DNA from: Candidatus Poseidoniaceae archaeon
GTDB taxonomy: Archaea; Thermoplasmatota; Poseidoniia; Poseidoniales; Poseidoniaceae
DNA length: 41,619 nucleotides
Assembly: GCA_028353405.1 (NCBI GenBank)
Contig: JAOMOG010000013.1
Location: 1 to 41,619 of the forward strand
Direction: 5' to 3'
Every line of letters starts with the position of its first letter. Position 1 is the stretch's first letter. Of the stretch, positions 1-8,645 are shown piece after piece. A program made the position numbers and the translations under genes. Under the pieces are notes generated by a model. It saw only the letters and a list, made by a program, of their open reading frames with translations. It had not been told where the DNA came from and did no database searches.

Positions 1-924
1 TCTTCCTCCGCCGCCTGAACGAGCCAGGCCACATCGATTACACTCATCTCTTCTTGCGAAGTTATTGTTATGGCATTTAGGACACTCCCAATCTCCATCC
101 ATGCGGTTTTCATTACCACCACTTCGGTTATCAGATCTGCTGAATCTATCTCTTCCGCTATCTCTACGGTCTCTGAATCCACCATCTCTTCCACCACTTC
201 GGTCATTTCTTTGACGTGAAGGGCTAGGTGCTCCACCTTCTCTTTCAAGACCACATCGGTTACATTCCGAGCGGAATGAGAAATTACTATTTTGACATTT
301 AGGACAGTCCCAATCATTACTGTTATCTGCACCATCGCGTTGTCCACTTGAACGGTTAGAATCACGTCCACTATCACGACTTCCACGGCGGTCACCACGA
401 CCCCTGTTGTCATCACGACCTCTTCGATCATCTCTACCGCCATATCTTTCATCGCGGCGAGCGCTTGAACGACCTGAACTTGGCCGAGGCGCTTCACAAC
501 GGTTACAGTTTTGACGGAATGAATAATTATTATTTTGACATTGAGGGCAATCCCAATCTTCACTTGGTTGGTGATTTCTTTCTTGCCTTCTTTCGTCGCG
601 ACTTCCACGTCGACCATCACGATCTCCGCTTCTTTCATTGCGCTGGTCACGGCGTTGGTCACGGTCGTTTTGGCGTTGTTCACGAGGTTTTTTCGATCTC
701 ACGCCGACTTCCTTTCCAACTAAGGATTGCATGTCGAGTTTTCTTTCAATATGTGCAACATGAACTAATGGAGAATTAGTGTTTCCTAATACTGAATCCA
801 CCTTACCAATATAATCACCAGTGGTAGCATCAGTGATTATAGATTCTAGCGCAGGTGACGAACCTGTAAATTTGACAAGTAATCCACCTTCGTGGCTCAA
901 CGACTCAATAGTACCAGTAAACAT
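1..924 (-). CDS. Gar1-like domain protein with three RanBP2-type zinc fingers (partial, C-terminus off window)
   Basis: Reading leftward from an ATG at 924, 308 codons stay open to the window edge, so the protein is incomplete at its C-terminus. Residues 1-88 resemble Gar1 of box H/ACA pseudouridylation RNPs: a small beta-barrel with a GxI start, a Pro-Ala-Leu segment, then IGKVDSVLG, SPLVHV and LVGKEV, which match the archaeal Gar1 layout. The rest is Arg/Asp/Gly/Ser-rich linker holding three fingers of the form W-x-C-x2-C-x3-N-x6-C-x2-C, at about residues 123-147, 204-228 and 278-300. The third has NFARR then CNRCG, nearly the ZRANB2 RNA-binding finger. A purine-rich AAAGGAGGAGGG lies about 20 bases upstream of the ATG; an in-frame TTG at 942 is better spaced from it and is an alternative start. 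The likely role is RNA binding, perhaps in rRNA modification. The finger call is very secure; the Gar1 call is by pattern and is good but unsearched. Confidence 0.85.
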   Translation of the reverse strand, partial: MFTGTIESLSHEGGLLVKFTGSSPALESIITDATTGDYIGKVDSVLGNTNSPLVHVAHIERKLDMQSLVGKEVGVRSKKPREQRQNDRDQRRDQRNERSGDRDGRRGSRDERRQERNHQPSEDWDCPQCQNNNYSFRQNCNRCEAPRPSSGRSSARRDERYGGRDDRRGRDDNRGRGDRRGSRDSGRDSNRSSGQRDGADNSNDWDCPKCQNSNFSFRSECNRCGLEREGGAPSPSRQRNDRSGGRDGGFRDRRDSGRDRFSRSDNRSGGNENRMDGDWECPKCHNNNFARRDECNRCGLARSGGGGR

Positions 925-976: not shown

Positions 977-2932
977 TCACAAATATTGTTTTCTTTGCCA
1001 AAATGCCATTGCCAATAATGTGATTATCAGCGTTGAAAGCATAGATAATGAGGGAAGTCCACCCTCTTCAGAAGGTTTGCCATCATCGATTATGATCTCA
1101 CCATTGTCCTCAGCATAAGGGTCGGGAATGAACACAGATAAGGTTCCGATAACTCCGGATTCATCAGTGGCAGAAATAATTACATCATATTCAGTAATTT
1201 CTTGCTGCATACAAGAGGCTATTGAAACATCAATTTCCCAATTAGTTCCAACTTGGGTGAAATCGGTTGTAGAGCCACCGCAAAGAGATAGCAATAGGGT
1301 CACTTCCTCTCCATCAGGGTCAATCACTGTACCTTTCAAAGTAAATTTCAATCCGCTATCATCCCACGTTGCATTTTCTTGACTTATTCCAGTAACCAAT
1401 TCTATAACGGGTGGAGAACTTGATTTTTCAAGGCCAAAGTTCAGCATAAATGAATATGTCATCATATTAGTTGCATCAGCAGTACCCATTATCAGTACCG
1501 CACCAGGTCTTAATTTTTTGAGAGATAAACCAGTTGTTATTTCACTCGTTGCAACAGTGATTGTTTTTGCGTCCGCCATATTATCCGATTGATGAGCATG
1601 AGCTATTACTGTCATTTCTCCAACCAATCCAGTTGGCGTAATGGTCAATTCTAATTCCTCACTTTCTTCATTCATCACCGCACTTGATGTAAATAGTTGA
1701 CCAAATGTCCATGTTCTAGATAATTCAGAAGTTGCTCCGAAAGTGTCCTCGAGAAAACATGTTGCCTGTGAAGAACCAGTGCCAATTGATGTGATAATAA
1801 ATGCCCCATCCTCATCCATTTGACTCGACCAGCCATCTTCAACGAAGTCACAATCTAATTTCCAACCATGATCATCACTTGCCCAATTTTCAGTATTATC
1901 ACCATCTACCGCGATAACAGTTCCATCACCAGATAACGGAATCACCATGCCGTCATCAGGTGCACTACTACTCCAAATTGGTATGTCATTATCCTCAACT
2001 TCTAAAGTCGTGAAATCAATAAATATTTCACGAATTACTGGGTAATTGGAAGTAGGATATTCGACATCAATAGATACTCTCATTCTTCCATTAGGAAGAT
2101 TTTCTATTACTGGGGTTTCAAGGGCATCATTCTGAACCTCATCATCCATTGTGGAGAAATCTAGCATTCTCAAACCTTGGGTTTGAGGGAATGTAAATAC
2201 AAATATGGCATCTGTGACATTTGTTACATTTATTGCAAGAGTGAAATTTGACATCCCTTTGTTAGGTAATTGGTTAAATTCAGTATTATGTGTCTTTCCG
2301 TCGGCAAGGAACATACTGATTTCTAAATCATCAGTTGCTGAAACAGGGACCTCATAGCAACCGTTAGATGCTAATAGGTTTTGACAAGTCCTTTTTTCTT
2401 CATGATCGGATGGAACTAGACTTATCTCATCCAATGCGATTCCATCTTGAATGAAACTCCACTGATTGAAGTCAACACCATGCCGAGGGGCAACTCCTTC
2501 TTTCATGCCAATTCTTGTATCCATGTCGGCGATACAATCTGGACCAATCGCTCTAACAGCATCTCTTTCATCAGTACTTAGCCATCCGTTACCGCCGCCT
2601 GGGACATCTTGAGAACCTATTAATTCGTCAAGATTTTCTCTAACAGTTGCTGCATTTGAACCGTTTACCCAAGAGTTAGCATAATAATCTACAGTCGCCC
2701 AATCATCAAGGATATTGATGTCAAAACTTGCAAAATCATAATCAAATAAATCTTCAAAAGTCAAACCACTACAGTTAACTTGCCCGACATCATCTTCCCT
2801 TGCTTCAGCATCAAGAATAACGTTATCTTCAAATCCATTTTCTTGCTGTTGAATTGGTGATAATGTCATCATTAACAATATCACACTGAGAATGAGTGAG
2901 GAAATTTTCAGCCTAGTGTTTACATCTGCCAT
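977..2932 (-). CDS. Large secreted surface protein with C-terminal membrane anchor
   Basis: This 651-residue protein has an N-terminal signal or anchor helix at about residues 8-25. A long acidic, Asp/Asn/Thr-rich extracellular region follows, with a few cysteines. A hydrophobic C-terminal helix (about residues 628-645, beginning LPSLSML) ends in a short basic tail, WQRKQYL. This signal-ectodomain-helix-basic-tail layout is typical of archaeal cell-surface proteins anchored by the C-terminus. The segment around VIDPDGEEVTL near residue 560 looks like a cadherin- or Ig-like beta-sandwich repeat. No catalytic motif is visible. It lies 62 bases downstream of the ABC-2 permease on the same strand, so it may share transcription or be exported or modified by that system; this is inference. 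No Shine-Dalgarno sequence is evident. Function unknown. Confidence 0.8.
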   Translation of the reverse strand: MADVNTRLKISSLILSVILLMMTLSPIQQQENGFEDNVILDAEAREDDVGQVNCSGLTFEDLFDYDFASFDINILDDWATVDYYANSWVNGSNAATVRENLDELIGSQDVPGGGNGWLSTDERDAVRAIGPDCIADMDTRIGMKEGVAPRHGVDFNQWSFIQDGIALDEISLVPSDHEEKRTCQNLLASNGCYEVPVSATDDLEISMFLADGKTHNTEFNQLPNKGMSNFTLAINVTNVTDAIFVFTFPQTQGLRMLDFSTMDDEVQNDALETPVIENLPNGRMRVSIDVEYPTSNYPVIREIFIDFTTLEVEDNDIPIWSSSAPDDGMVIPLSGDGTVIAVDGDNTENWASDDHGWKLDCDFVEDGWSSQMDEDGAFIITSIGTGSSQATCFLEDTFGATSELSRTWTFGQLFTSSAVMNEESEELELTITPTGLVGEMTVIAHAHQSDNMADAKTITVATSEITTGLSLKKLRPGAVLIMGTADATNMMTYSFMLNFGLEKSSSPPVIELVTGISQENATWDDSGLKFTLKGTVIDPDGEEVTLLLSLCGGSTTDFTQVGTNWEIDVSIASCMQQEITEYDVIISATDESGVIGTLSVFIPDPYAEDNGEIIIDDGKPSEEGGLPSLSMLSTLIITLLAMAFWQRKQYL

Positions 2933-2964
2933 ATCAATTGATACTAGGTGTCATCTAATACACT

Positions 2965-2980
2965 TGCCCCTTTAGGGGCA
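2965..2980. terminator. GC-rich hairpin between ABC permease and surface protein
   Basis: A perfect 6-bp stem, TGCCCC/GGGGCA, closes a TTTA tetraloop in the 62-base gap between two minus-strand genes. It could terminate or stabilise the ABC-exporter transcript. No strong T-tract follows on the minus strand, so the terminator call is weak. Confidence 0.35.
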
Positions 2981-2994
2981 GTATTTTACTTATT

Positions 2995-3825
2995 TCAAGG
3001 AACTAAATTTTCCATTCGTTTTGCAAGTATCCAAAGTGGCAAAATAGTCCAAGCAATTGCCATAATCCCAATTTGCCAACCAGGAACGCCGCGTTGAACG
3101 CCTGATAACCGTGTTTCTAGTATGTGATGATAAACACCGTTTGGTGAAAATAAATCAAGAGCTCCTTCTAATGCAATCCAAGAAGAATCATTATCTTGGC
3201 CGATGGCAATTCCAGAAGCAAGGGCAACCATACTTGTTACCAATGCCCACAAGAATGTGAAGAAAAACCAAATACCGACTCCAAAAGCCATCGCAGTACC
3301 CTGCTCTCTCGCTTTTGAAGAAGCGATTAGCGTGAATAATGTATACCATATCAAAATCAGTCCAGTTGCAATAATATGGACAATGAGATCCATGGCTTCT
3401 GGCCAAACTCCCATTCTATAACGAATAATAACTACTGAGATTAGCACCAAAATAGTTACAGGAATAATTACTGCAATAGAAGTGCCATGCACTAGAGCAA
3501 GTGTTTGATTTAAGCGAGACATTGGTTGAGCCAATTTCACTTCTAGAACACCGCTTGCTCTTTCTTTGCTTACACCATCAAAAGCCATTAAAACAGCACA
3601 CATAGTTCCACCGAAAACGATTCCAAGGCTGGAATAAAATAGCACTTCCATCGGTGTTTCAGGTCGATGGCCACCTGGGAGAATGATGTTAGGGTCTGAA
3701 AATCCCCAGGCCATTCCAGGAATAAACAATAGTAATATTGGGAACATCAATAACATCCTTGTTGAGAATATTTTCTCTTTGACAAGTAGAGAGGTTACTT
3801 TTCGATATGATACCTTTCCTCTCAT
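2995..3825 (-). CDS. ABC-2 type transporter permease
   Basis: This 276-residue membrane protein has about six hydrophobic segments: near residues 23-40, 68-86, 108-130, 145-168, 178-203 and 250-268. It also has the signature ERASGVLEVKLAQPMSR stretch after the second helix (about 88-104), which is typical of ABC-2 permeases of the NosY/ABC-2 family. Its start overlaps the ATPase stop by ATGA (3822-3825), so the two are translationally coupled and form one exporter. The substrate cannot be read from the sequence. ABC-2 systems usually export lipids, polysaccharides, peptides or drugs, or take part in copper-enzyme assembly. The neighbouring surface protein suggests a cell-envelope role, but that is only inference. 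Confidence 0.85.
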   Translation of the reverse strand: MRGKVSYRKVTSLLVKEKIFSTRMLLMFPILLLFIPGMAWGFSDPNIILPGGHRPETPMEVLFYSSLGIVFGGTMCAVLMAFDGVSKERASGVLEVKLAQPMSRLNQTLALVHGTSIAVIIPVTILVLISVVIIRYRMGVWPEAMDLIVHIIATGLILIWYTLFTLIASSKAREQGTAMAFGVGIWFFFTFLWALVTSMVALASGIAIGQDNDSSWIALEGALDLFSPNGVYHHILETRLSGVQRGVPGWQIGIMAIAWTILPLWILAKRMENLVP

Positions 3826-4865
3826 TCTTCTTCCGCCTCCCTATGAATCAGTGGTAGGAATGCGGATGAAGTAATTTCCAAGCCAACATCCTCTACCCTA
3901 AGCCCTGTTGAAGAGCATAACATCTCTACTAAATCGGGTGCATGTGGTTGCCAAGATTCTACTTCAATTCCTTCACTGATGAGTTTTTTCAGCACCCCAT
4001 CGGCATTACCCTTCAGTTGCATTTGCCAAGAGTCTTGATTAGTTTCAGATTCAAGCAGTTCCATTCCTAATTTTTTAACCAACTCAGATGATGGTGGCTT
4101 TGAAGTTCCAGTCAAGTCAAACCTATCACTCAATTCCAACTCTTTTTCGACCGATTTTATTTCACCTTCGATTAGTAGTTGACCGCGATGAAGTAATGCG
4201 ATTCTATCTATTAGCCCAATTAGCCCTGAAACTTGGTGAGAGGATATCACAATAGAAACTCCTTTTCCACTCAATTGTTGTAATAGTTGAGCGAATGCTT
4301 GTGCAGCAACAGGGTCTAGTCCATTGAATGGTTCATCGAGAAGTAGAATATCTGGGGAACCCAGTAATGCAGTAGCTAAAGTTAGACGCTGTCGCATACC
4401 TTGACTTAATTCATCTAGCGGAGAATCAATTCGTGAGTTCAAACCTACTAGTTTAATCAATCCAAGAATACGATGTTCTGATGAACCTCTCATAGCAGCG
4501 ATTTCAACCATTGCATCATGAACTGTTTTCCTTCCCTGCCAGCGAACTTGCTCCGGCATATGTCCAATAATTTCTCTCAATTCAACACTGTTTGACAATT
4601 TTCTTTCTATCGTTTGATCACCCTTTGAAGAGGTGAAAACAGCATTTCCTTTCTGTAGAGGTAAGACTCCCGCCAACATTCGTAACAAGGTCGTTTTCCC
4701 TGCACCATTTGGACCAACTAGGCCCAATATTGTGCCTCTGTGTAGAGACAAGTCGATTTTGGGAATGCCGGGTCCACGGATTTTCTTCCAGGGTTTTGTT
4801 AGCGTTGGAGCGCTAATGTAGTGGCGACAAGACGCGCCAACAAGTTGTAAAACGACCTCCGCCAT
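3822..4865 (-). CDS. ABC-2 type transporter ATP-binding protein
   Basis: This 347-residue protein has one nucleotide-binding domain. Walker A is GPNGAGKTT at residues 51-59, the ABC signature is LSQGMRQR near residue 195, and Walker B is LLLDEPFNGLDP, followed by a switch His in ISSHQ. About 110 C-terminal residues after the ATPase core form the accessory domain common in ABC-2 exporters of the CcmA/NosF type. The ATG start overlaps no other gene. The stop overlaps the permease start by four bases, so the pair is a coupled exporter. Residues 18-35 of the N-terminus contain a short insertion before the first beta strand. Substrate unknown. Confidence 0.93.
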   Translation of the reverse strand: MAEVVLQLVGASCRHYISAPTLTKPWKKIRGPGIPKIDLSLHRGTILGLVGPNGAGKTTLLRMLAGVLPLQKGNAVFTSSKGDQTIERKLSNSVELREIIGHMPEQVRWQGRKTVHDAMVEIAAMRGSSEHRILGLIKLVGLNSRIDSPLDELSQGMRQRLTLATALLGSPDILLLDEPFNGLDPVAAQAFAQLLQQLSGKGVSIVISSHQVSGLIGLIDRIALLHRGQLLIEGEIKSVEKELELSDRFDLTGTSKPPSSELVKKLGMELLESETNQDSWQMQLKGNADGVLKKLISEGIEVESWQPHAPDLVEMLCSSTGLRVEDVGLEITSSAFLPLIHREAEEE

Positions 4866-5982: not shown

Positions 5983-5996
5983 TCGGAGTATTGTGT

Positions 5997-7046
5997 ATGT
6001 CGGTAAAACCAATTTTTATAGTTCTAATAATACTAGCATCCAGTCTTACTGGATGTATTGATGGTAAGCAAAGAATTGATGATGGTGGTTTAATTGCACC
6101 CGAATCAATAAAAATCGCATTTTCAATCAAAGATGATTATAGCAACTTCGATGAAAACCCATATCGGCTTGCAGATTATTTGTCGCAACAAATAGGTAAA
6201 CCAGTAGAATTGTACCCTATCACTTCTGATGCACTTGCATTGGAAGCATTACGCTTTGGATCTGCTGATATGGCTTTCATGGATGGCGGCGCTGGTTGGG
6301 TCGGTTGGCAAAAATACGGATTACAGGTTGCAGCAGCGGATATGAAGAGTGATGGAAAAACCTACTATCAAGCCCATGCATGGGTATTGAATGGTAGCGA
6401 TGTTGCAGATGCGCTCCAAGATGGAAATGAATCAACGGATCCCTTCGCTTTACTACAAGGAAAAACATCATGCCACACAGGTTGGTTAAAGTCAGCTGGA
6501 ATGTTGATTCCAATGGGTTATCTAATCGGAAATAACTACACCGAGGTAATCGGCGATTCAGAAGATATTGAATCATTGCGCAATACGATATTTAATTTCT
6601 TTAATGCGGATGCGAGTATTCCCGAATCGGGAACTCCATATTATGGATATTCAGGTGCTATGAAGTGCCTAAGCGATGGTAAAGGAGAGGTCGCATTTGC
6701 CAAAGATTCCACCGTTGACACATATTGCAATAACGAAGTAGTTGAGGATAATGACGATTGGTGTTTGGATCTTGCCAGTTACATCAAATTACCAGCATTT
6801 GGAAATGCACCAAGCCATCCACTAATGTATCAACCTAATTCAATCTCAGATTCAGATAGAGCTGCGATTGTATCTGCATTGGTAGAACTACAAGATAGTG
6901 AAGATGGGCGTTCTATTTTACAAAATATTCTCAATACCCCTGGAATAGTTGAAAGCACCGCTGAACAACATTTGAATTCATATTCTGGTCTAATTTCCCA
7001 CGTCCCTGGAATCTCACAATACATGGAAGAAAAATACCAAGCATGA
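5997..7046 (+). CDS. Transferrin-like iron-binding lipoprotein of an ABC importer
   Basis: This 349-residue precursor has a lipoprotein signal ending in lipobox LTGC (Cys20). The ATG at 5997 is preferred over the in-frame TTG at 5991. The fold reads as a two-lobed periplasmic-binding protein of the PhnD/transferrin superfamily. Several segments look strikingly like animal transferrin lobes: GKTSCHTGWLKSAG with IPMG (155-174), YYGYSGAMKCL (215-225), EVAFAKDSTV (231-240) and NAPSHPLMY (270-278). By this alignment the iron ligands are all present: Asp96, Tyr123 or Tyr124, Tyr218 and His274. The carbonate-site Thr is Thr161, and the usual Arg is Lys165. Cysteines at 159, 224, 244 and 256 could form disulfides. 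It heads an operon with an ATPase and a permease and follows two metal-repressor-like operators. Proposed role: capture of Fe(III) at the cell surface. A phosphonate or phosphate ligand is the main alternative, but the ligand set argues for iron. Confidence 0.85.
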   Translation: MSVKPIFIVLIILASSLTGCIDGKQRIDDGGLIAPESIKIAFSIKDDYSNFDENPYRLADYLSQQIGKPVELYPITSDALALEALRFGSADMAFMDGGAGWVGWQKYGLQVAAADMKSDGKTYYQAHAWVLNGSDVADALQDGNESTDPFALLQGKTSCHTGWLKSAGMLIPMGYLIGNNYTEVIGDSEDIESLRNTIFNFFNADASIPESGTPYYGYSGAMKCLSDGKGEVAFAKDSTVDTYCNNEVVEDNDDWCLDLASYIKLPAFGNAPSHPLMYQPNSISDSDRAAIVSALVELQDSEDGRSILQNILNTPGIVESTAEQHLNSYSGLISHVPGISQYMEEKYQA

Positions 7047-7074
7047 GAAAAAAACAATCATTGGAGTAAATAGT

Positions 7075-7737
7075 ATGGCGAAATTGTTAGCAAAGTTAGT
7101 TGATGTTTCTGTCGGTTACGAAACAACTCTGATCGAGGAGATTAATCTAGAGATTTACTCTGGTGATGTTATTGCGGTATTAGGTCCCTCTGGAATTGGC
7201 AAAACAACACTGCTGCGAACTTTAGCAGGATTGGTTAGACCAATCTCAGGTTCGGTGGAATTGAAAGTAAAACGCAGAGGAGGTTTAGGGTATATTCCTC
7301 AAAGACTCGGGTTAATAGGCAATATGAGTGTTCGTTCAAATATTGAAATGGGTGCAAGGATGCATGCGTCAAAATGGTTGCCTCCAATATTCCCCTTACC
7401 CAAAAAGTTACGACCAATAGTGGACAAAGCATTACACAATTTCGATTTGACTGAATTTTCTAACCAGCCTGTTAGGACGCTATCCGGTGGCCAGCAACGC
7501 AGGGTCGCAACAGCAAGAACTGTTGCGCAACAACCCAAACTGGTTCTTGCTGATGAGTTCTTGGGGGAATTAGACGATGACAATGTTGAAATTGTAATGA
7601 GGACTGTTAAAGCGACGATTAAAGAGAAGAAATCTGCCTTAGTAATGGTTGAACACCATGAAGAGTTGGCGCATCAAGTTGCAAATAGAATTTGGAGAAT
7701 TATTGATGGTAAATTGATTGAGGAGGAGATTCAATGA
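7075..7737 (+). CDS. ABC importer ATP-binding protein, PhnC-like
   Basis: This 220-residue ATPase has Walker A GPSGIGKTT at residues 37-45, a Q-loop in YIPQRLGLI, signature LSGGQQRR from residue 136, Walker B LVLADE ending near residue 161, and switch His in VEHHEE. The IPQRLGLIGNMSVRSNI stretch and overall length resemble PhnC-type ATPases of phosphonate importers. It follows the transferrin-like lipoprotein after 28 bases and overlaps the permease gene by ATGA (7734-7737). The three genes are therefore one importer. Walker B is followed by FLGELD rather than the usual PTGxLD, a modest variation. It should energise import of the iron or other ligand delivered by the lipoprotein. Confidence 0.92.
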   Translation: MAKLLAKLVDVSVGYETTLIEEINLEIYSGDVIAVLGPSGIGKTTLLRTLAGLVRPISGSVELKVKRRGGLGYIPQRLGLIGNMSVRSNIEMGARMHASKWLPPIFPLPKKLRPIVDKALHNFDLTEFSNQPVRTLSGGQQRRVATARTVAQQPKLVLADEFLGELDDDNVEIVMRTVKATIKEKKSALVMVEHHEELAHQVANRIWRIIDGKLIEEEIQ

Positions 7738-8645
7738 ATACAAGAGTTTTCGCAGTCGCTTCAATATCATTGCTTTTAGCGTTGATCACATTCAATGATT
7801 TAGTTGGTGATTGGGGTCGATTAGAAGGTGGATGGAGCAATCTAGTAATTTTCTTTAATGAATCATTGTGGCCACCTAACTGGTCCGTATTAGAAGCACA
7901 ATCGTATCCGGTTTGTGAAGAAAGTGTAGGTCTATTTTGTTCAGTTGCATGGATCGGTATGGTTGAAACTATCAAAATTGCCTTTGTATCAACTGCTTTT
8001 GGTTTTATTATCGCCTTGCCTTTAGCAGCCTTTGCTGCAAATAATTTATCTCCAAAATGGGTTTCATTTCCTGCGCGAGTAATTCTTTCAGCAATGAGAA
8101 GTTTACCTTCAATAATTTGGGCAATATTATTCGTTATTATTTTTGACATCGGCACACTTGCGGGGATATTTGCAATGACTTTTTACACAGTTGGCTATCT
8201 AGGGAAATTACAATTTGAATCTATAGAAGGCATTAGAAACGCACCTCTTGAAGCATCGAGAGCGATGGGAATGACTCGTGCAGAAATAACTTATCTAGTT
8301 GCGATACCTGAATCTGCAAATAATTTACTATCTCATCTTATGTTTATGTTTGAATATAATGTGAGACATGGAACTGTAATCGGTTTAGTCGGTGCCGGTG
8401 GTATTGGATTATACCTCAATACCTATCTTAAAATGTTACAATACGATAAAGTGGTTGCATTGTTGATTATCGTATTCATAGTGGTTGTTTTGATAGATAT
8501 GTTATCGATGATAATACGTTCCAAATTCACAGAAGAAGGAGATGTGCAAAGGCCCTCTTGGTCTACAATTCTTCTGCCAGCAAAGATGGCATCATCGCAT
8601 CATCACGGCAATTTTGTTCATCAAGAAGATGGCTCAGAAGAATGA
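7734..8645 (+). CDS. ABC importer permease, PhnE-like
   Basis: This 303-residue protein has about six membrane segments and the binding-protein-dependent permease core. The EAA coupling loop is visible as EASRAMGMTRAEITYLVAIP (about residues 172-191), followed by a glycine-rich GLVGAGGIGLYL, typical of PhnE-type permeases. An extra N-terminal helix and a loop with two cysteines (PVCEESVGLFC, about 58-68) precede the core and probably lie outside the cell. The C-terminus is hydrophilic and ends in a His-rich patch (SSHHHGNFVHQ) that could contact metal or be incidental. It is translationally coupled to the ATPase. It converges with the small winged-helix gene, whose stop is only three bases away. 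Confidence 0.9.
   Translation: MNTRVFAVASISLLLALITFNDLVGDWGRLEGGWSNLVIFFNESLWPPNWSVLEAQSYPVCEESVGLFCSVAWIGMVETIKIAFVSTAFGFIIALPLAAFAANNLSPKWVSFPARVILSAMRSLPSIIWAILFVIIFDIGTLAGIFAMTFYTVGYLGKLQFESIEGIRNAPLEASRAMGMTRAEITYLVAIPESANNLLSHLMFMFEYNVRHGTVIGLVGAGGIGLYLNTYLKMLQYDKVVALLIIVFIVVVLIDMLSMIIRSKFTEEGDVQRPSWSTILLPAKMASSHHHGNFVHQEDGSEE

Follow-up and report, generated by a model that had tools for sequence, protein, structure and literature searches.

A probable Gar1 protein with a tail of RanBP2-type zinc fingers in Poseidoniales archaea

The window that we analyzed, a stretch of 41,619 nucleotides, is the entire contig C5 of a genome that is 66% complete and spread over 54 contigs. At its first end lies a gene that most likely encodes a Poseidoniales-specific form of the Gar1 of an H/ACA RNP, with a zinc-finger tail that would bind single-stranded GGU RNA. 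An archaeal rRNA-modifying complex has thus probably gained a second RNA hold of its own. This is a known kind of system in a variant that is conserved across an archaeal order and undescribed in the literature we searched, where we found no description of a fusion of Gar1 to RanBP2 fingers. To our knowledge, archaeal Gar1 proteins are about 70-100 aa long and have no RNA-binding tail. The Poseidoniales form shares with them (PF04410; Pyrococcus furiosus 2ey4, 2hvy) the barrel fold, a single gene per genome and co-occurrence with Cbf5 and Nop10; unlike them, it is about 150-500 aa long, mostly fingered, and has lost the G-P-V-x-x-P motif.

The gene (924..1, minus strand) starts with an ATG at position 924, with an in-frame TTG at 942, and runs without a stop for 308 codons to the contig end. 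Because the window is the whole contig, the 3' end of the gene has been cut off by the assembly and its stop codon is missing. Its closest named relatives come from MAGs assigned to Candidatus Poseidoniaceae and Poseidonia (marine group II archaea), one of which encodes a protein that is 99% identical across the first 83 residues. Where the contigs of relatives reach further, the protein extends through Gly/Arg-rich stretches and in some cases includes a fourth finger before closing with a conserved sequence such as FRKSRGNGPGHAHNRPPKP. A C-terminal motif outside the fingers, FRK(S/A)(R/K)GK..GHAHN..P, recurs in family f1 (L003, L007-L011, L015, L125). The contigs of many Poseidoniales MAGs stop within the gene (window 1-20, L002, L004, L005, L012, L013, L014, L018), presumably because of its internal repeats, so that MAG-based surveys under-report or split it.

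A frame at a contig end, in a gene within which contigs often end, might suggest that a Gar1 fragment had been misjoined with a zinc-finger gene. However, the same architecture is found in dozens of genomes and in two families, and a single-contig genome of the same genus, G083, carries an intact 307-aa frame with two fingers, which excludes misassembly. An assembly chimera is refuted by this recurrence together with G083, and we give it practically no credence. Compared with the close relative G007, the window gene shows 85 synonymous and 22 amino-acid-changing codon differences, with the synonymous excess seen in fingers and barrel alike. This excess and the intact copy in the single-contig genome support the view that the gene encodes a real protein. 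In one other locus (L024, genome G015), the frame of the tail shifts to a Glu/Val-rich reading past the second finger, which reflects either an assembly error or a true frameshift.

By sequence comparison and structure prediction, residues 1-80 are a divergent Gar1, and the predicted beta-barrel domain was delimited at residues 1-82 (679..924, minus strand). The preliminary description, made from the sequence alone, had assigned the first 88 residues to Gar1; the assignment stands, while the extent comes down to about 80 residues. Searches of Pfam and NCBIfam returned Gar1 as the sole recurrent family for this domain, at scores below both curated cut-offs, which are detection thresholds and not biological features: PF04410 scored 18.6 bits on the domain alone against a cut-off of 29.3, and the NCBIfam Gar1 model 20.7 bits against 139. 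With PF04410 at this score, automatic annotation would miss Gar1 here. The same Pfam model matches 21 of 23 homologues of the domain. An AlphaFold2 model of residues 1-83, made with 23 homologues, reached a pLDDT of 87 and a pTM of 0.74, and when its fold was compared with the PDB by Foldseek, the top three matches were Pyrococcus Gar1 chains (2ey4_D, 2ey4_C and 2hvy_B, from Cbf5-Nop10-Gar1 and H/ACA RNP crystals), with TM scores by target of 0.84-0.87 and rmsd values of 1.5-1.9 A. The top eight matches were all chains from H/ACA RNP entries of archaea or eukaryotes, the Pyrococcus chains being followed by those of insect, human and yeast. Alignment by hhalign to sixteen Gar1s from other Thermoplasmatota gave an E value of 4.3e-9 and a probability of 96 over 74 columns. 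Recognizing the domain took both this fold comparison and hhalign, since an ordinary profile search against the PDB, started from the domain alignment, reached Gar1 only at an E value of about 0.9.

We also considered Naf1, a Gar1-like assembly factor that has a related barrel and a long extension. We rejected this identity, as the fold match was weaker (2v3m at rank 23, amid ATPase barrels) and there was no partner Gar1. Naf1 is eukaryotic and is exchanged for Gar1 during assembly, whereas no second Gar1 was found in 60 Poseidoniales genomes.

Of those 60 genomes, all of the same genus or order, 53 carry a single copy of the Gar1 domain, and neither PF04410 nor a homologue search detected a second copy in any of them, the window's own incomplete genome included. 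A separate canonical Gar1, which the preliminary description had named as the observation that would count against it, was accordingly absent from the sequences searched. The co-occurrence with Cbf5 and Nop10 that it had proposed as a check was borne out: Cbf5 is present in the window's own genome and scored above cut-off in 38 of 40 genomes, and Nop10 was likewise found in 38 of the 40 searched, though not in the 66%-complete genome itself, which also encodes an L7Ae-type protein. Within this incomplete genome, the window protein is therefore the only Gar1 found alongside H/ACA partners, and the sole candidate for that role.

These data also bear on whether the protein has left the H/ACA RNP to act more generally as an RNA chaperone or a binder of single-stranded RNA, its barrel being a relic. 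Its divergence from the Gar1 models would agree with such a history, as would a tail that makes up three quarters of the protein and the fate of the G-P-V-x-x-P motif, which is invariant in the sixteen sister-group Gar1s and replaced in most Poseidoniales. Yet we detected no other Gar1, Cbf5 and Nop10 are maintained throughout the order, and the barrel is retained even in genera that lack fingers. We consider departure from the RNP unlikely and favor a working Gar1 whose interface with Cbf5 may differ from that of its relatives, since the motif is largely replaced.

Two genomes call for separate comment. G051, of genus g9, lacks Gar1, Cbf5 and Nop10, and we considered a joint loss of the H/ACA components in this genus. 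Its genus mates contradict this, with Gar1 in 8 of 10 and Cbf5 in 6 of 10, and because they retain these genes, the absence in G051 is best read as missing sequence. The MAG G174 contains two distinct Gar1-finger genes, L126 on contig C38 and L127 on contig C37; the latter is similar to the G092 gene, and either a true paralogue or sequence from a contaminating sibling species could account for it.

The tail contains three RanBP2 fingers (PF00641, E 1.4e-21), as had been described from the sequence, and each exceeded the family cut-off in the genome search and conforms to the pattern W-x-C-x2-4-C-x10-C-x2-C. When the tail was searched against PDB sequences, the best matches were ZNF265/ZRANB2 (1n0z, 3.4e-6) and FUS (6g99, 1.6e-5), with RBM10 (2mxv) and ZRANB2 finger 2 (2k1p/3g9y) as further relatives, so that the search returned exactly the RNA-binding members of the RanBP2 family. 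Finger 1 (residues 121-149; 478..564, minus strand) is FUS-like and aligns with 6g99 at an E value of 1.6e-5; its putative RNA-reading residues are Asp123, Asn131, Tyr134, Phe136, Arg137 and Asn141. Finger 2 (residues 202-230; 235..321, minus strand) aligns with ZRANB2 2k1p/3g9y at 2.6e-4 and has Asp204, Asn212, Phe215, Phe217, Arg218 and Asn222 at these positions. Finger 3 (residues 276-304; 13..99, minus strand) is ZRANB2-like, aligns with 1n0z at 3.4e-6 and has Asp278, Asn286, Phe289, Arg291, Arg292 and Asn296. The close match of one finger to ZRANB2 that had been pointed out earlier is that of finger 3 to ZRANB2 finger 1, including the Arg-Arg pair, while fingers 1 and 2, with an aromatic-Arg pair, are nearer to FUS and EWS. 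In the full model, the barrel is followed by three folded ribbons (finger 1 at a pLDDT of about 80-87), and the stretches at about 80-120, 151-202 and 231-275 have a pLDDT below 50.

In ZRANB2 finger 2, GGU is read by Asp4, Asn14 and Asn24, which contact the third base, and by Arg19 and Arg20, which contact both guanines, along with an aromatic residue that stacks; FUS and EWS have Trp instead of Arg19 and keep the specificity (PMC6384913). We mapped these positions by alignment onto 147 fingers from 67 distinct Gar1-finger ORFs, which are related, so that the conservation counts are not independent events. Asp4, Arg20 and the stacking aromatic are present in all 147 fingers, Asn14 and Asn24 in 145 of 147 each, and Phe, Arg or Trp occupies position 19 in 143 of 147; positions 15, 21 and 22 of the same fingers are variable, unlike these determinants. 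This contrast argues strongly, if indirectly, that the fingers read RNA of the GGU/GGN type, and the near-invariant determinants support the suggestion that the tail makes sequence-specific RNA contacts. A degenerate finger lacking most of the GGU determinants occurs in the Gar1 tail of genus g2 (WVCGKCRTLNSRTGRCTNCG; L066, L069).

Proteins as well as RNA are known ligands of RanBP2 fingers, and fingers of an NZF or nucleoporin type might dock the RNP to another protein, such as RNA polymerase or a component of the ribosome-assembly machinery. In line with this, Sulfolobus ArnA is likewise an archaeal protein with a RanBP2-type finger, and a signalling protein (PMC6509490); as an FHA protein of archaellum control, it differs in being no RNP protein. 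Against protein binding stands the near-invariance of every GGU-reading position next to variable positions 15, 21 and 22, and the linkers are cationic and Arg-rich, like those around RNA-binding fingers. We therefore regard protein-binding fingers as very unlikely and RNA reading as the preferred role of the tail. The fingers resemble those of ZRANB2, the FET proteins (FUS, EWS) and RBM5/RBM10 in sequence and in their GGU-reading residues, and the alternation of Arg/Gly-rich disorder with a RanBP2 finger recalls FUS in particular. Compared with these proteins, the Poseidoniales protein is archaeal, lacks an RRM and carries its fingers on a Gar1 barrel, and its tail has two to four fingers where FET proteins have one.

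The fingers are separated by three linkers that are predicted to be disordered: linker 1, Arg/Asp-rich (residues 83-120; 565..678, minus strand), and linker 2, Arg/Asp/Gly-rich (residues 150-201; 322..477, minus strand), from composition and a pLDDT below 50, and linker 3, Arg/Gly/Ser-rich (residues 231-275; 100..234, minus strand), from a pLDDT below 50. Overall, the window linkers are 31% Arg, 17% Asp, 14% Gly and 13% Ser, with a net charge of +14 across 133 residues. The Arg/Gly/Asp-rich character noted at the outset thus holds, with Ser added, although the window linkers contain no literal RGG triplets. Such triplets belong to the RGG domains of eukaryotic GAR1, which have been described as eukaryote-specific and absent from archaeal Gar1; yeast Gar1 without its RGG domains shows altered catalysis, yield and turnover, which points to contact with the substrate RNA (PMC8096250). 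In Caenorhabditis elegans, the RGG domain of GARR-1 contributes to sub-nucleolar phase separation (PMC9633708), and this, with the multivalent fingers and Arg-rich disorder of the Poseidoniales tail, would suit a tail that serves mainly as a condensate scaffold, clustering H/ACA RNPs and pre-rRNA in a nucleolus-like body. Since the window linkers are also Asp-rich and lack RGG triplets, we hold this only as a tentative possibility, one that overlaps with our preferred reading of a Gar1 with an RNA-reading tail. Eukaryotic GAR1 likewise joins a Gar1 core to a disordered Arg-rich tail, with RGG repeats flanking the core on both sides and without zinc fingers, whereas the Poseidoniales tail is C-terminal only, Arg/Asp/Gly-rich and equipped with RanBP2 fingers. 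We read the Poseidoniales protein as probably convergent with the RGG-tailed eukaryotic GAR1.

We determined the distribution of the fusion across Thermoplasmatota and a few control genomes. Fingers are present in nearly every genome of the window's genus that carries the gene; in a second family, the number of fingers is one to three in several genera, while g4 and g8 have a basic tail without fingers, and the fingers are therefore not indispensable to the RNP. RanBP2 fingers occur (E 1e-5) in 36 of 194 genomes of the phylum, 35 of them Poseidoniales and one encoding an unrelated membrane protein. Elsewhere in Thermoplasmatota, Gar1 is short and has no fingers, and in family f3 (L145, L146), which belongs to the same class, it stops directly after the barrel. 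The Gar1-finger fusion is thus confined to Poseidoniales within the phylum sample. Given short fingerless Gar1s in the sister groups and fingers in Poseidoniales, the tail would most simply have been gained in the Poseidoniales stem, with fingers later lost or multiplied. A 465-aa Pro/Ala-rich membrane protein from another Thermoplasmatota family (L128; G072:C2:2900-2983) has a RanBP2-like finger at its end and bears no relation to Gar1.

Archaeal Gar1 binds Cbf5 and shifts its thumb loop, which governs uridine placement and product release (PMC4551948). From its fold and this knowledge of Gar1, the N-terminal barrel would dock on Cbf5 and move the thumb loop in the same way, promoting correct placement of the uridine and release of the product. 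The tail, in which flexible Arg-rich linkers flank one to four RanBP2 fingers, would bind single-stranded RNA, each finger preferring GGU/GGN to judge from the conserved determinants. Tethered in this way, it could keep pre-rRNA near the guide-substrate duplex through several weak contacts, raising the local substrate concentration and residence time, and, being multivalent, it could gather RNPs on nascent pre-rRNA, as the RGG tails of eukaryotic GAR1 may do. We infer the binding to Cbf5, the RNA target, the effect on turnover and the clustering from these comparisons. A bolder version, which we offer as speculation with the odds against it, is that Poseidoniales, independently of eukaryotes, acquired on Gar1 a FUS-like finger array that reads GGU in rRNA, providing a second, guide-independent specificity together with nucleolus-like clustering. 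If this were true, the GGU-reading H/ACA RNP of Poseidoniales may tolerate weaker or fewer guide RNAs.

As far as we know, RanBP2 fingers that read GGU have been described chiefly in splicing and FET proteins of eukaryotes. An abundant marine archaeal order whose only Gar1 carries fingers of this kind together with an Arg-rich tail is a compact natural test system, which could show how H/ACA RNPs use RNA-binding tails, and the finding speaks to whether tails of this sort originate convergently. It also fills an annotation gap, as the Poseidoniales Gar1 is missed at standard cut-offs.

The gene adjoins neither an H/ACA gene nor an rRNA gene, and an Rfam search found no RNA within the window. 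In the window (977-4865) and at L080-L091, the gene order is conserved as ABC ATPase, ABC-2 permease, a protein of about 650 aa, gar1 and a 345-aa protein. We considered this synteny as support for an H/ACA function and set it aside, as the neighborhood is conserved yet uninformative. Both protein neighbors of gar1 lack a Pfam match, and the larger (651 aa) is membrane-anchored with a C-terminal hydrophobic segment. Beside the sister-group gar1 genes, no TFB zinc ribbon was found with the pattern used. An S-adenosylhomocysteinase gene joins the conserved neighborhood in several genomes, and a phosphonate-type ABC transporter set (binding protein, ATPase and permease) lies near gar1 at window positions 5991-8645 and also in several relatives.
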